NCBI GenBank assembly: GCA_027489245.1
Contig: JAIYAC010000014.1
Span: forward strand, 48,205-112,204
From: Neisseriaceae bacterium
GTDB taxonomy: Bacteria > Pseudomonadota > Gammaproteobacteria > Burkholderiales > Chromobacteriaceae
Direction of reading: 5' to 3'
Length of the DNA: 64,000 nucleotides
Shown here: one piece after another, positions 3,812-63,274 of the stretch
Numbering within the stretch: the stretch's first letter is position 1
How the letters are laid out: the number at the start of each line of letters is the position of its first letter
The notes under the pieces: model-generated
Seen by the model: only the letters and a program-made list of their open reading frames with translations
The model's database searches: none
What the model was told of the DNA's origin: nothing
Translations under genes and position numbers: made by a program

Positions 3812-5014
3812 ATGTCTGACTCATCAAACCGCCGTTTTGGCGTGCTGGCGCTGATGTTGGCCGCATTGGCATCGCTGGGCCCGTTCTCCATCGATACCTT
3901 TTTGCCGGCCATGCACGATATGGGCGCGTCGCTGAGTGCATCGCCCATCGAAATGCAGCAAACGCTGTCGATCTACCTGTTTTGCTACGCGGTAATGATG
4001 CTGTGGCATGGCGCTATTTCTGACTCGGTAGGCCGCCGCGCGGTGATTCTGGCGTCCACGCTGGTGTTCGCCGTGGCATCGGTAGGCTGCGCGTTGGCGC
4101 CCAACCTGGGCACCTTGCTGTTGTTCCGTGGCCTGCAGGGCCTGTGCGGTGGTGCGGGGCTAGTGGTGGGGCGGGCGATTATCCGCGATACCTTCCATGG
4201 CCATGATGCGCAGCGCATGATGTCGCAGGTCACCATGCTGTTTTCGCTGTCGCCTGCCGTGGCACCGCTGGTAGGCGGTTTGCTGTTTGGCGCGCTGGGT
4301 TGGCGGTCCATCTTTGTGTTTCTGGCCTTGTTGGGGCTCACGATCTTTGCCCTGTGCTGGCGTGCCATGCCGGAAACCCACCCGGTCGCCGCGCGCACGC
4401 CGTTTGCCTGGCGGCAGCTGCTGGCCAACTACCTGGAAGTTGGCCGCAAGCGCGAGTTCCAGCTGCTGGCGCTGGCGGTGTCGTGCAATTTTGCCGGCTT
4501 TTTTGTGTACATCCCGTCGGCACCGGTGTTTGTCATGCAGCACCTGGGGCTGGGGCATAACGACTTTTTGTGGATGTTCGGGCCCATCGTGTCCGGCATC
4601 ATGTTTGGCGCGTTTTTGTCCGGTAAGCTGGCGGGGCGGCGCGATACCCGCACCATCGTCAATATCGGCTACACGCTGATGTTTACCGCCACCGCGGCCA
4701 ACCTGCTACAGGCTTTCCTGATGACACCGGCGGTGCCGTGGGCGGTGCTGCCGCTGGCGCTGTACACCACGGGCATGTCGATGTCGGCGCCGTCGATGAC
4801 GCTGACGCTGATGGACCAGTTTCCGCACCTGCGCGGTACGGTATCGTCTGTGCAGGGCTTTGTGCAGACCATGTTTTCCACCCTACTGGCGGGGGTGATT
4901 TCACCGCTGGTGTGGGGGAGCGTGCAAAGCCTGGCGCTGACCATGCTGGTGTTTCTGGTGGCGGGCTTTGTGCTGCGCAGCGCCTACCGCCGCCGTATCC
5001 AGCGGCCGGTGTAG
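3812..5014 (+). CDS. Bcr/CflA family multidrug efflux MFS transporter
   Basis: A 400-aa, 12-helix major facilitator protein. The N-terminus (FGVLALMLAALASLGPFSID, TFLPAMHDM) and the motif-A-like loop GAISDSVGRRAVIL are typical of the Bcr/CflA drug:proton antiporters. The family exports bicyclomycin, chloramphenicol or cysteine in different hosts; the substrate here cannot be read from sequence. An ATG 48 bases upstream would add a non-conserved extension, so I use 3812. Two exact copies of GTTGGCCGCA fall inside the gene (3856, 4439). Confidence 0.9.
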   Translation: MSDSSNRRFGVLALMLAALASLGPFSIDTFLPAMHDMGASLSASPIEMQQTLSIYLFCYAVMMLWHGAISDSVGRRAVILASTLVFAVASVGCALAPNLGTLLLFRGLQGLCGGAGLVVGRAIIRDTFHGHDAQRMMSQVTMLFSLSPAVAPLVGGLLFGALGWRSIFVFLALLGLTIFALCWRAMPETHPVAARTPFAWRQLLANYLEVGRKREFQLLALAVSCNFAGFFVYIPSAPVFVMQHLGLGHNDFLWMFGPIVSGIMFGAFLSGKLAGRRDTRTIVNIGYTLMFTATAANLLQAFLMTPAVPWAVLPLALYTTGMSMSAPSMTLTLMDQFPHLRGTVSSVQGFVQTMFSTLLAGVISPLVWGSVQSLALTMLVFLVAGFVLRSAYRRRIQRPV

Positions 5015-5023
5015 CCGCTGCGC

Positions 5024-5506
5024 TCAGGCGCTGGCGTCGACCAGCACCGGCTGCAGCACGCGCTGCAGCTCGGCAGGCGCCATGCCCACCAGAAAGCCGC
5101 GTTTCCCGCCGTTGATGTAGATGCGCGGCAGCTCGGCAATGCCGGCCGCCATGTATACCGGCATCTTGCTCTTGGTGCCAAACGGGCTGGTGCCACCCAC
5201 CTGGTAGCCGCTGTGCTTGTCGGCGGTTTTCGGGTCGCAGGGGGTAATTTTCTTGGCGCCGATCTGCTTGGCCAGCATACCGGTGGCCACCTCGCAGTCG
5301 CCGTGCATCAGCACAATCAGCGGCTTGCGCTGTTCGTCTTCCATCACCAGGGTTTTGATCACCGCGTGCTCGTCGACGCCCAGCTCGCGGGCCGACACGC
5401 GGGTACCGCCTTTTTCTTCGTATTTGTACAGATGCTCGGTGTAGGCCACCTGGTGTTCGCGCAGCATGCGCACGGCCTGGGTGACCGGGGCTTTTTCCTT
5501 GGACAT
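5024..5506 (-). CDS. ybaK: Cys-tRNA(Pro)/Cys-tRNA(Cys) deacylase YbaK/EbsC
   Basis: A 160-aa YbaK-domain protein that hydrolyses cysteine mischarged on tRNA(Pro) in the cytoplasm. The conserved VIKTLVMED strand, the lysine-containing KITPCDPKTADKHSGYQVGG core and the SPFG loop (GTSPFGTKSKMPVYM) are all visible. The length is normal for YbaK. It converges with the Bcr/CflA gene with a 9-bp gap and lies downstream of msrPQ on the same strand, 31 bp after msrQ's upstream neighbour boundary, so it may have its own promoter or be read separately. Confidence 0.93.
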   Translation of the reverse strand: MSKEKAPVTQAVRMLREHQVAYTEHLYKYEEKGGTRVSARELGVDEHAVIKTLVMEDEQRKPLIVLMHGDCEVATGMLAKQIGAKKITPCDPKTADKHSGYQVGGTSPFGTKSKMPVYMAAGIAELPRIYINGGKRGFLVGMAPAELQRVLQPVLVDASA

Positions 5507-5537
5507 GGCTATCGATAGGGCAGGGTAAGACAGGGCG

Positions 5538-6164
5538 CTATTGTACCTGCCGGCCCAGGGTTGGCCGCAAGCGCCACCACAGTCGCAGGCCCAGCAGCAG
5601 CGCTAGCACCGCGGCGTACAGCAGCGGCTCGGTCAGGTCGCGCTTCACCAGCCACAGGTAGTGGATCACCGCCAGCACGGCCAGCGGGTAGACCAGCCGG
5701 TGCAGCTGGCCCCAGCGCCGTTTCAGCCGCCGCAGCCAGCCATCGGTAGAGGTGATGGCCAGCGGTAGCAGCAGGGCAAACGCCGCCATGCCCACGGTAA
5801 TGAACGGGCGCTTGATGATGTCGTGGCCAATGGCACCCCAGTCGAACAGCTGGTCCAGCCACAGGTAAATCAGCAGGTGCACGCTGGCGTAAAAGAAGGC
5901 GTACAGCCCCAGCATGCGGCGCAGGCGCAGCAGCCAGCCTGGCGCGCCCAGGCGGCGCAGCGGGCTAATGGCCAGCCCGGCCAGCAGCAGGTTCAGCGCC
6001 CAGCTGCCGCTGTCGCGGGTGAGCGTTTCTACCGGGTTGACCGCCTGGCCGCTTAAGGCTTGCCACAGGCTGGCGGTCAGCGGCAGCAGGCACAGCACGA
6101 ACAGCAGTGCCTTGATGCGGCCAACCATGGCGGGCGAGGGGTTAGAGAGCAAGGTTGGCCGCAT
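5538..6164 (-). CDS. msrQ: MsrQ, haem b membrane subunit of the MsrPQ repair system
   Basis: A 208-aa ferric-reductase-like membrane protein (formerly YedZ) with six predicted helices and conserved histidines in YASVHLLIYL and GQLHRLVYPLAVLAVIHY. It passes electrons from the quinone pool or flavin to periplasmic MsrP. Its ATG shares one base with the msrP stop codon (TGATG), so the two are translationally coupled. Exact copies of the repeated 10-mer sit at both its first codons (6154) and its last codons (5560), so the N- and C-termini (MRPTLL, RPTLGRQVQ) are partly shaped by the repeat. Confidence 0.93.
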   Translation of the reverse strand: MRPTLLSNPSPAMVGRIKALLFVLCLLPLTASLWQALSGQAVNPVETLTRDSGSWALNLLLAGLAISPLRRLGAPGWLLRLRRMLGLYAFFYASVHLLIYLWLDQLFDWGAIGHDIIKRPFITVGMAAFALLLPLAITSTDGWLRRLKRRWGQLHRLVYPLAVLAVIHYLWLVKRDLTEPLLYAAVLALLLGLRLWWRLRPTLGRQVQ

Positions 6165-62149: not shown

Positions 62150-62166
62150 TTGGCCGCAAGCTGCAT

Positions 62167-62193
62167 TGCTTATCGATGAATGTTTGATAAGCA
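62167..62193. promoter_or_regulatory. Inverted repeat upstream of sbp (candidate CysB-type operator)
   Basis: TGCTTATC and GATAAGCA separated by 11 bases, 80 bases before the sbp start codon. A regulator of sulfur uptake such as CysB is plausible by context, not proven. Confidence 0.45.
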
Positions 62194-62272
62194 AAGCAGT
62201 TTTTCTTGGTTCTGGCTGGCCGCCACCTTGGCTAGATTTCCCCCATCGCACTCTCACTGATGGGGATACACC

Positions 62273-63274
62273 ATGACGCGCCTTACTCGCCTTGCTACTG
62301 CTACTACCCTGCTGTTTGCCCTGGCCGGCCACGCCCTGGCCGACGTTACGCTGCTGAACGTGTCCTACGACCCGACCCGCGAGCTGTACCAGGACTTCAA
62401 CGCCGCCTTTGCCAAACAGTGGAAAGCCAAGACTGGCGAAACCGTCACCATCAAGCAGTCGCATGGCGGTTCCGGCAAGCAGGCGCGTGCCGTGATCGAC
62501 GGCCTCGAGGCCGACGTGGTGACGCTGGCGCTGGGTTACGACGTGGATGCGCTGAATACCGAAGCCAAGCTGATTCCGCCCACCTGGCAAAAGCGCCTGC
62601 CGAACAACTCGGCACCGTATACCTCCACCATCGTGTTCCTGGTGCGCAAGGGCAACCCCAAGGCCATCAAGGACTGGAACGACCTGATCAAGCCGGGTGT
62701 GGAAGTGGTGACGCCTAACCCGAAAACCTCCGGTGGCGCCCGCTGGAACTACCTGGCTGCCTGGGGATACGCGCTGAAACAGCCGGGCGGTAACGACGCC
62801 AAGGCCAAGGACTTCGTGAAGAAAGTGTTCCAGAACGTGAAAGTGCTGGACTCCGGCGCCCGCGGCTCGCTGGTAAGCTTTACCCAGCGTGGCATCGGTG
62901 ACGTGCTGCTGGCGTGGGAAAACGAAGCCTACCTGGCCACCAAAGAGCTGGGCCCGGACAAGTTCGACATCGTGACCCCGTCGCTGTCGATCCTGGCCGA
63001 GCCGCCAGTCAGCGTAGTGGACAAAGTGGTAGACAAGCGTGGCACCCGCAAGGTGGCCGAGGCCTACCTGCAGTACCTGTACAGCCCGGAAGGCCAGGAG
63101 ATCGCTGCGGCCAACTACTACCGCCCGCGTGACGCCAAGGTGGCCGCCAAGTACGCCGACAAGTTCACCAAGGTGAAGCTGTTCACCATCGATCAGGTAT
63201 TCGGTGGCTGGACCAAAGCCCAGAAAACCCACTTTGACGATGGCGGCGTGTTCGACCAGATCCAGGTGCGCTAA
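62273..63274 (+). CDS. sbp: Periplasmic sulfate-binding protein
   Basis: A 333-aa solute-binding protein with signal peptide ([20 protein letters not shown], then ALA cleavage). [39 protein letters not shown] and [19 protein letters not shown] are the sulfate-binding signatures of Sbp/CysP. It delivers sulfate to the CysTWA importer, whose first permease gene begins at 63937. Exact 10-mer at 63106. Confidence 0.96.

Follow-up and report, generated by a model that had tools for sequence, protein, structure and literature searches.

A ten-base word in some 2,000 copies per genome as a putative DNA uptake sequence of Vogesella

What maintains a ten-base word that recurs, on both strands, about once every 1.5 kb of a bacterial genome? 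The question is raised by a 64,000-nucleotide stretch (hereafter the window) of contig JAIYAC010000014.1 (C1:48205-112204 in our labelling; assembly GCA_027489245.1), whose source genus is Vogesella and whose top-ranking 10-mer by exact count is GTTGGCCGCA. An uptake sequence labels DNA for preferential uptake by competent cells of the same kind, and we propose, at a probability of about 0.86, that GTTGGCCGCA is a putative DNA uptake sequence (DUS) of Vogesella, present at about 2,000 copies per genome, with a CCG core and read by a ComP pilin that lacks the cysteine pair pinning the DD region. The word is a likely uptake word because of its copy number, strand balance, phylogenetic range, sister words, maintenance, scarcity in prophages and pairing in spacers after genes, and an uptake word accounts for this evidence better than does any of the rival explanations weighed below. 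The initial annotation of the window had proposed a different uptake-sequence dialect in a relative outside the Neisseriaceae; the Vogesella host, the DUS-like distribution, the sister words and a ComP ortholog support that predicted function.

Abundance, shape and placement of the word

The window holds 48 exact copies (28 plus, 20 minus) between 3856 and 63115; the earlier count of about 47 (28 and 19) was thus right about the overabundance and off by one on the minus strand. Genome-wide, the source assembly (G000; 3.51 Mb, 26 contigs, 88% complete) contains 1158 forward and 1143 reverse copies, 2,301 in all, versus 3 + 3 = 6 copies of the reversed control word. Evaluating a 463-kb sample (the window plus 20 stretches, with genes called by a simple script and not a standard gene finder), we observed 322 copies versus 3.0 expected under an order-3 Markov model or 15.9 under an order-5 model, a comparison that the initial annotation had suggested for the whole genome. 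Called genes contain 234 of these copies and the spacers between them 87, with 1 more on a gene boundary; as called genes make up 87% of the sample, copies are 2.5 times as dense between genes as within them. Gaps between copies fit an exponential distribution (Kolmogorov-Smirnov p 0.34 and 0.50), so regular spacing was not found and long gaps in the source genome are not read as islands.

The initial annotation had also named three patterns that would speak for something more ordinary, namely counts near a codon-aware expectation, confinement to a single L-A-A codon phase, and equal frequency in other GC-rich genomes. None of these was seen in the 463-kb sample or, for the third, within the order. 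Synonymous codon shuffling within the 357 called genes of the 463-kb sample gave 9.0 coding copies (sd 3.1; maximum 17 in 100 shuffles) against the 234 observed; the L-A-A phase (sense, phase 2) accounts for only 79 of 322 copies; and, within the order, 197 other genomes carry at most 52 copies each. Could the codon or amino-acid composition of a GC-rich genome nonetheless generate the word? Coding copies do favour the phases giving L-A-A and A-A-N (the latter 104), but all six phases are present, coding copies divide into 117 sense and 117 antisense, and density is highest between genes. The shuffles, the relatives without excess and the reversed control word led us to reject composition and codon bias, to which we assign a negligible probability.

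The same strand balance bears on a second explanation, a chromosome-maintenance signal read by a DNA-translocating or recombination protein. Words of the KOPS, Chi and matS type are short, numerous and chromosomal, and KOPS- and Chi-type signals show strong strand bias along each replichore. Such a signal would resemble GTTGGCCGCA in length and number, and an SMC-like protein is coded in the window at 27549-30359, its match lying far under the family cut-off. However, strand polarity is absent both in the genome-wide counts and on one 339-kb contig (128/103), as it is relative to genes, replichores being unmapped in this assembly, and a polar chromosome signal was rejected for this absence of strand bias. 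Inverted pairs in spacers after genes would be unexpected of a maintenance signal, as would different words in sister genera and none in others of the family (below), and we regard this explanation as quite unlikely.

The word is sharply bounded. Its tenth base in the window is A in 48 cases, C in 12, G in 7 and T in 3 (the initial annotation, with A 47, C 12, G 7 and T 1, had the preference for A right and the A and T counts slightly wrong), and in the 463-kb sample A 322, C 60, G 41 and T 24. The window consensus before the word is A-A-G (A 27/48, A 26/48, G 27/48), with a weak base preference also on its 3' side. All 27 single-base variants of positions 1-9 together total 7 copies in the window and lie near chance in the 463 kb, where the variants most in excess are C at position 1 (14 versus 3.6) and A at position 8 (6 versus 1.5). 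Copies favour the form AAG-GTTGGCCGCA, in which position 10 is partly free. These properties bear on whether the word resembles cyanobacterial HIP1, a hugely over-represented short palindrome with no known reader, and is a genome-wide word with no assigned function, maintained through methylation, biased repair or the packing of the nucleoid. HIP1 is indeed likewise over-represented, GTTGGCCGCA contains GGCC, and the prophage scarcity reported below would suit any host-wide word. But GTTGGCCGCA is not self-reverse-complementary and shows preferences on both sides (AAG before, A at its end), its single-base variants at positions 1-9 are near chance, and its inverted pairing and the ComP ortholog fit uptake; we judge a HIP1-like word about as improbable as a maintenance signal.

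Pairing of copies is a genus-wide feature. Inverted pairs with a spacer of at most 12 bases number 32-150 per genome in 13 of 13 Vogesella genomes, whereas the same count in the other 48 genomes of the family gave one pair in 4 and none in 44. In samples from eight Vogesella, with 771 copies in all, we counted 44 inverted pairs within 40 bases. Tandem genes flank 22 of them, convergent genes 13, and 9 are in called coding sequence, so that 35 of 44 are intergenic; none of the 44 falls in divergent-gene spacers, though these make up a quarter of the intergenic bases in the eight samples. The inverted pair (42766/42776, adjacent) and the tandem pair (51420/51434) of the initial annotation are both present, and a second inverted pair lies at 6116/6154. 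Both folded inverted pairs of the window give strong RNA hairpins, that at 42766-42785 with -35.2 kcal/mol (z -4.9) and no U-run, that at 6116 with z -4.6, and a U-run in the direction of its gene is absent at both. DUS inverted pairs are described as associated with terminators in the accessible text of PMC3630211. Hairpins in spacers after genes are also what a scattered small mobile repeat (repetitive extragenic palindrome, REP, or miniature inverted-repeat transposable element, MITE) or a terminator element would leave. Most copies, however, are single and intragenic (546 of 683 unpaired copies), and shared sequence ends about three bases before the word, with a weak preference after it. 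A mobile repeat was rejected, there being no longer unit common to the window copies, and this class of explanation is highly improbable, more so than the two signals above.

The copies, each an exact match, and the pilus gene at the window's edge are as follows.

1..639, minus: pilM, cut by the window edge (PF11104, 271 bits; gene order by tblastn)
3856..3865, plus: copy, codon 5 of the coding sequence 3842-5014, sense
4439..4448, plus: copy
5560..5569, plus: copy, C-terminal end of the ferric-reductase-like (MsrQ) gene
6116..6125, minus: copy, left arm of inverted pair, 28-base spacer
6154..6163, plus: copy, right arm of the pair with 6116
10286..10295, plus: copy
10502..10511, minus: copy
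11911..11920, plus: copy, alpha-2-macroglobulin gene
12120..12129, minus: copy, alpha-2-macroglobulin gene
12474..12483, plus: copy, alpha-2-macroglobulin gene
14196..14205, plus: copy, alpha-2-macroglobulin gene
15263..15272, minus: copy, alpha-2-macroglobulin gene
16295..16304, minus: copy, alpha-2-macroglobulin gene
17262..17271, plus: copy
18252..18261, minus: copy
21969..21978, minus: copy, intergenic
22115..22124, plus: copy, intergenic
23391..23400, plus: copy, intergenic
24220..24229, minus: copy, intergenic
26449..26458, plus: copy
26943..26952, plus: copy
27498..27507, plus: copy
28616..28625, plus: copy
29708..29717, plus: copy
32588..32597, plus: copy
35637..35646, plus: copy
36244..36253, minus: copy
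37374..37383, plus: copy
38306..38315, minus: copy
42387..42396, minus: copy
42766..42775, minus: copy, left half of adjacent inverted pair 3' of an oligopeptidase A-like gene
42776..42785, plus: copy, right half of the adjacent inverted pair
45925..45934, minus: copy, intergenic
46844..46853, plus: copy
49244..49253, plus: copy, intergenic
50123..50132, plus: copy
51420..51429, minus: copy, tandem pair, intergenic
51434..51443, minus: copy, tandem pair, intergenic
55465..55474, plus: copy
56199..56208, minus: copy
56457..56466, minus: copy
56749..56758, plus: copy, intergenic
58256..58265, minus: copy
59421..59430, plus: copy
59937..59946, plus: copy
62020..62029, minus: copy
62149..62158, plus: copy, end of a called gene
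63106..63115, minus: copy, sulfate-binding protein gene

Copies that the initial annotation had placed at both ends of MsrQ are there, at window positions 5560 and 6116, the gene being ferric-reductase-like, and its pilM call agrees with the PF11104 match; its name MksE for 26821-27549 found no backing, that product matching no Pfam family at 1e-5. Separately, the window contains a cspA-type thermoregulator RNA leader (47424-47798; RF01766, 118 bits) and a chromosomal gene for an EptA-like phosphoethanolamine-lipid A transferase (53605-55209).

Relatives, sister words and maintenance

Scanning relatives with the PBP1A gene of the window, we found 10-13 copies of GTTGGCCGCA per 22 kb at the loci of V. 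aquatica, V. urethralis, V. margarita and V. alkaliphila, and 0 or 1 copy per locus in Chromobacterium and Aquitalea. Among 200 genomes of the order, the three rich in GTTGGCCGCA belong to this genus (2,301, 2,057 and 2,044 copies); as a positive control, the same tool applied to the Neisseria word gave 1,863 and 2,499 copies in two genomes of the order. These whole-genome counts of GTTGGCCGCA cover 3 of 13 Vogesella and 3 of 48 other genomes of the family, the remainder being covered by the inverted pairs and by samples. A mild excess of GTTGGCCGCA occurs in another family (f18, genus g59), where two 2.0-Mb genomes, G064 and G184, carry 34 and 20 copies versus 2 and 1 of the reversed word.

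De novo word counts in 80-kb samples revealed sister words. The top word is GTTGGCCGAA in G233, G234, G242 and G241, as it is in 76 kb of G117, and GTTGGCCGAG in G230, while no such top word appeared in G201, G204, G214, G210, G217, G235, G236, G239 and G226 (20-80 kb each) or in G232 (20 kb), and in Chromobacterium no word excess was found. Whole-genome counts of GTTGGCCGAA are 2,168 and 579 in genus g111, 1,245 in g112, 1,851 in g114, 1,104, 893 and 183 in g115, and 1,368 in G117 (labelled g3); those of GTTGGCCGAG are 1,940 and 1,590 in g110. In total, 23 of 61 genomes of the family bear one of the three words (13 Vogesella and 10 of sister genera), sorted by genus except for G117. All three words share the stem GTTGGCCG, followed by CA, AA or AG, and on this likeness they look like the dialects of the Neisseriaceae. 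Pseudogulbenkiania subflava has 4 copies of GTTGGCCGAA in 22 kb; for Pseudogulbenkiania sp. NH8B, the accessible text of PMC3630211 records no obvious uptake word. Two g113 genomes, G236 and G239, show slightly raised counts of the GAA and GAG words (45-92) with no such top word in 77 and 20 kb.

Several further genomes depart from this pattern. Counts of GTTGGCCGAA in G232 and G243 are low (579 and 183, G232 also having 165 GTTGGCCGAG) versus about 900-2,200 in relatives of the same genera, which suggests decaying or mixed dialects. In 75.6 kb of G117 (L132-L135), a second word, GTTTGCCGAA, has 12 copies versus 0.84 expected beside 29 of GTTGGCCGAA, perhaps a dialect in transition. A separate repeat, ACCCGCCCTA, has 8 copies in 80 kb of the Vogesella genome G253 (L076-L079) versus 0.18 expected.

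Copies of GTTGGCCGCA are maintained between close species. An 84-kb stretch was compared with three Vogesella at 89% identity. Of its 62 copies, 55, 58 and 56 could be aligned, and 69%, 76% and 73% of these, respectively, were letter-perfect; 71-76% of coding copies were retained versus 36-38% of phase-matched coding 10-mers; copies thus survive about twice as often as matched 10-mers, a comparison that the initial annotation had also called for. Density is steady at 0.5-0.8 per kb in all seven Vogesella sampled, and we conclude that copies are kept, lost and regained. Prophages, by comparison, are poor in the word: three of them, located by terminase search in 3 of the 13 Vogesella genomes and delimited through sampled genes with PHROGs matches, have 24 copies in their 101 kb versus 111 in 159 kb of flanks (p 8e-8), making copies about three-fold scarcer. 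Added sampled genes widened the limits, raising the counts from 3 to 8 in G027 and from 8 to 10 in G248, and the wider limits underlie the reported counts; those of the G027 prophage are uncertain, with PHROGs matches of unknown function just outside. An earlier, cruder count of 15 kb on each side of the terminase gene had given 16, 15 and 7 copies in 30 kb, with no clear depletion in two of the three.

A ComP ortholog beside the pilus genes

The pilM gene at the window's edge is the first of a pilMNOPQ-aroK-aroB run that leads, outside the window, to a candidate receptor of the kind that the initial annotation had advised looking for:

G000:C1:41413-41829, plus: comP, outside the window, 6.4 kb upstream, adjoining aroB-aroK-pilQPONM

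Its product is an ortholog of Neisseria ComP, a type IV minor pilin that is its best PDB match in both sequence and fold; the two share N-A-x-F-M-E, G-R-x-K-x-T and W-P-x-L-P, and the Vogesella protein scores over the Pfam ComP_DUS cut-off. An ortholog is present in 13 of 13 Vogesella genomes searched, and beside pilMNOPQ in the source genome and the five others where the stretch was read. The N-T-D-G loop keeps N-x-D in 22 of 23 aligned ComPs from word-bearing genomes versus 0 of 7 from wordless ones. A PilE-like pilin of the source genome (L002) was set aside as receptor, its best PDB match being P. aeruginosa PilE. Comparing G000 with G251 (L064), comP and its fimT-like neighbour are 78% and 82% identical, while identity is 94-99% for the surrounding pilQPONM, aroKB, pbp1A and ABC transporter, making comP and this neighbour a local hot spot of divergence. 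In G233 (L085), pilM is only 38% identical to Vogesella pilM, versus 69-81% in six other, also distant, relatives, and from this sequence comparison the pilMNOPQ run of G233 looks replaced.

In the mechanism we envisage, ComP, located in the type IV pilus, would bind the word on outside DNA and pass the bound DNA to the secretin, with DprA and, where present, ComEC completing entry; recombination of word-bearing fragments would then keep and spread copies. The ComP loop R-N-T-D-(N/D)-G-Y, rather than a two-disulfide DD region, would be the likely reading surface.

A number of observations weigh against an uptake function. Only the C-terminal cysteine pair is present in 30 of 30 aligned ComPs of the family (a few carry additional ones in the N-terminal helix), and the accessible part of PMC12061091 reports that DUS binding by Neisseria ComP depends crucially on both of its disulfides. 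Genera that lack the word have ComP-like pilins too, so that a receptor by itself is no predictor of the word, and Pfam ComP_DUS is unspecific, the PilE-like pilin of the source genome scoring 80.9 bits versus 32.4 for ComP. ComEC was not matched at E <= 0.001 in the source genome (88% complete) or in G252; it is present in the other 11 of 13 Vogesella genomes, and the two absences may be assembly gaps. With regard to the copies, the distant Vogesella G253 retains only 25% of 32 (coding copies 20% versus 16%), a second distant Vogesella 38% of 13, and the depleted prophages nonetheless contain their 24 copies. The 6116-6163 hairpin has its 3' U-run on the strand opposite the flanking genes, and that pair is no proven terminator.

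Comparison with known uptake systems

Literature searches returned no report of GTTGGCCGCA, and among the matches listed no title dealt with uptake words. Neisseriaceae DUS such as AG-DUS AGGCCGTCTGAA and AG-simDUS AGGCTGCCTGAA are likewise words of 10-12 bases in about 2,000 copies per genome on both strands, and GTTGGCCGCA shares with them a frequency of about one per kb that is far above chance. Also common to both are inverted pairs in spacers, genus-wise dialects, AG before the word and A at +10, the last broken by the GAG word of g110. According to the accessible text of PMC3630211, kingDUS and king3DUS also differ by A/C at +9. Vogesella has fewer near-miss copies than has been described for DUS, position 10 excepted. 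In the same register, GTTGGCCGAA matches GCCGTCTGAA at 6 of 10 bases and simDUS at 7 of 10; such likeness was rejected as proof, being too weak alone, as random GC-rich 10-mers match a known dialect as well in 3-6% of cases for GTTGGCCGAA and 14-33% for GTTGGCCGCA.

What we describe is a DUS-like system lacking two Neisseria features, the CTG core and the four-cysteine DD region. All eight DUS dialects described in the accessible text of PMC3630211 have CTG at +6 to +8, and transversions in this core cut meningococcal uptake more than 100-fold. In contrast, the register AG-GTTGGCCGCA puts CCG at +6 to +8, as do GTTGGCCGAA and GTTGGCCGAG alike, and the initial annotation was right that the word lacks a central CTG; the system is therefore classed apart, and not as a ninth CTG dialect. 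At +7 the change is from T to C, a transition, which is not among the changes described in the accessible part of PMC3630211. Whereas the DD region of Neisseria ComP is held by two disulfides among four cysteines (PMC4906244, accessible part), the Vogesella-type ComP lacks the pinning pair, and 9-10 residues separate its final two cysteines, which the model places in a hairpin, compared with 21 (C118-C139) in N. meningitidis.

We lean, by a modest margin, towards regarding the Chromobacteriaceae as a second branch of self-recognising transformation, with words formed by GTTGGCCG and CA, AA or AG, no CTG core, and a ComP reading through a hairpin and an N-T-D-G loop without a disulfide-pinned DD region. 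If so, uptake words would be older than the divergence of Neisseriaceae from Chromobacteriaceae, and CTG would be a core adopted locally and not a rule. A search in 2013 of five genomes of related genera gave no obvious uptake word, as related in the accessible text of PMC3630211; our results extend putative uptake words to that group and suggest that they also channel gene exchange beyond Neisseria and its nearest relatives. In Neisseria, the recognition of a DNA word by a pilin is still an unsolved problem, the accessible part of PMC12061091 giving the structure of the ComP-DNA complex as unresolved. A family that has three new words, a simpler receptor and sister genera lacking any word offers natural variation for matching and swapping word against receptor residues. 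The uptake signal sequence (USS) of the Pasteurellaceae is unrelated to GTTGGCCGCA as a word, and the bacteria are unrelated too. It is likewise a genome-wide uptake word for which a minor pilin has been proposed as reader (PMC12616744, accessible part).

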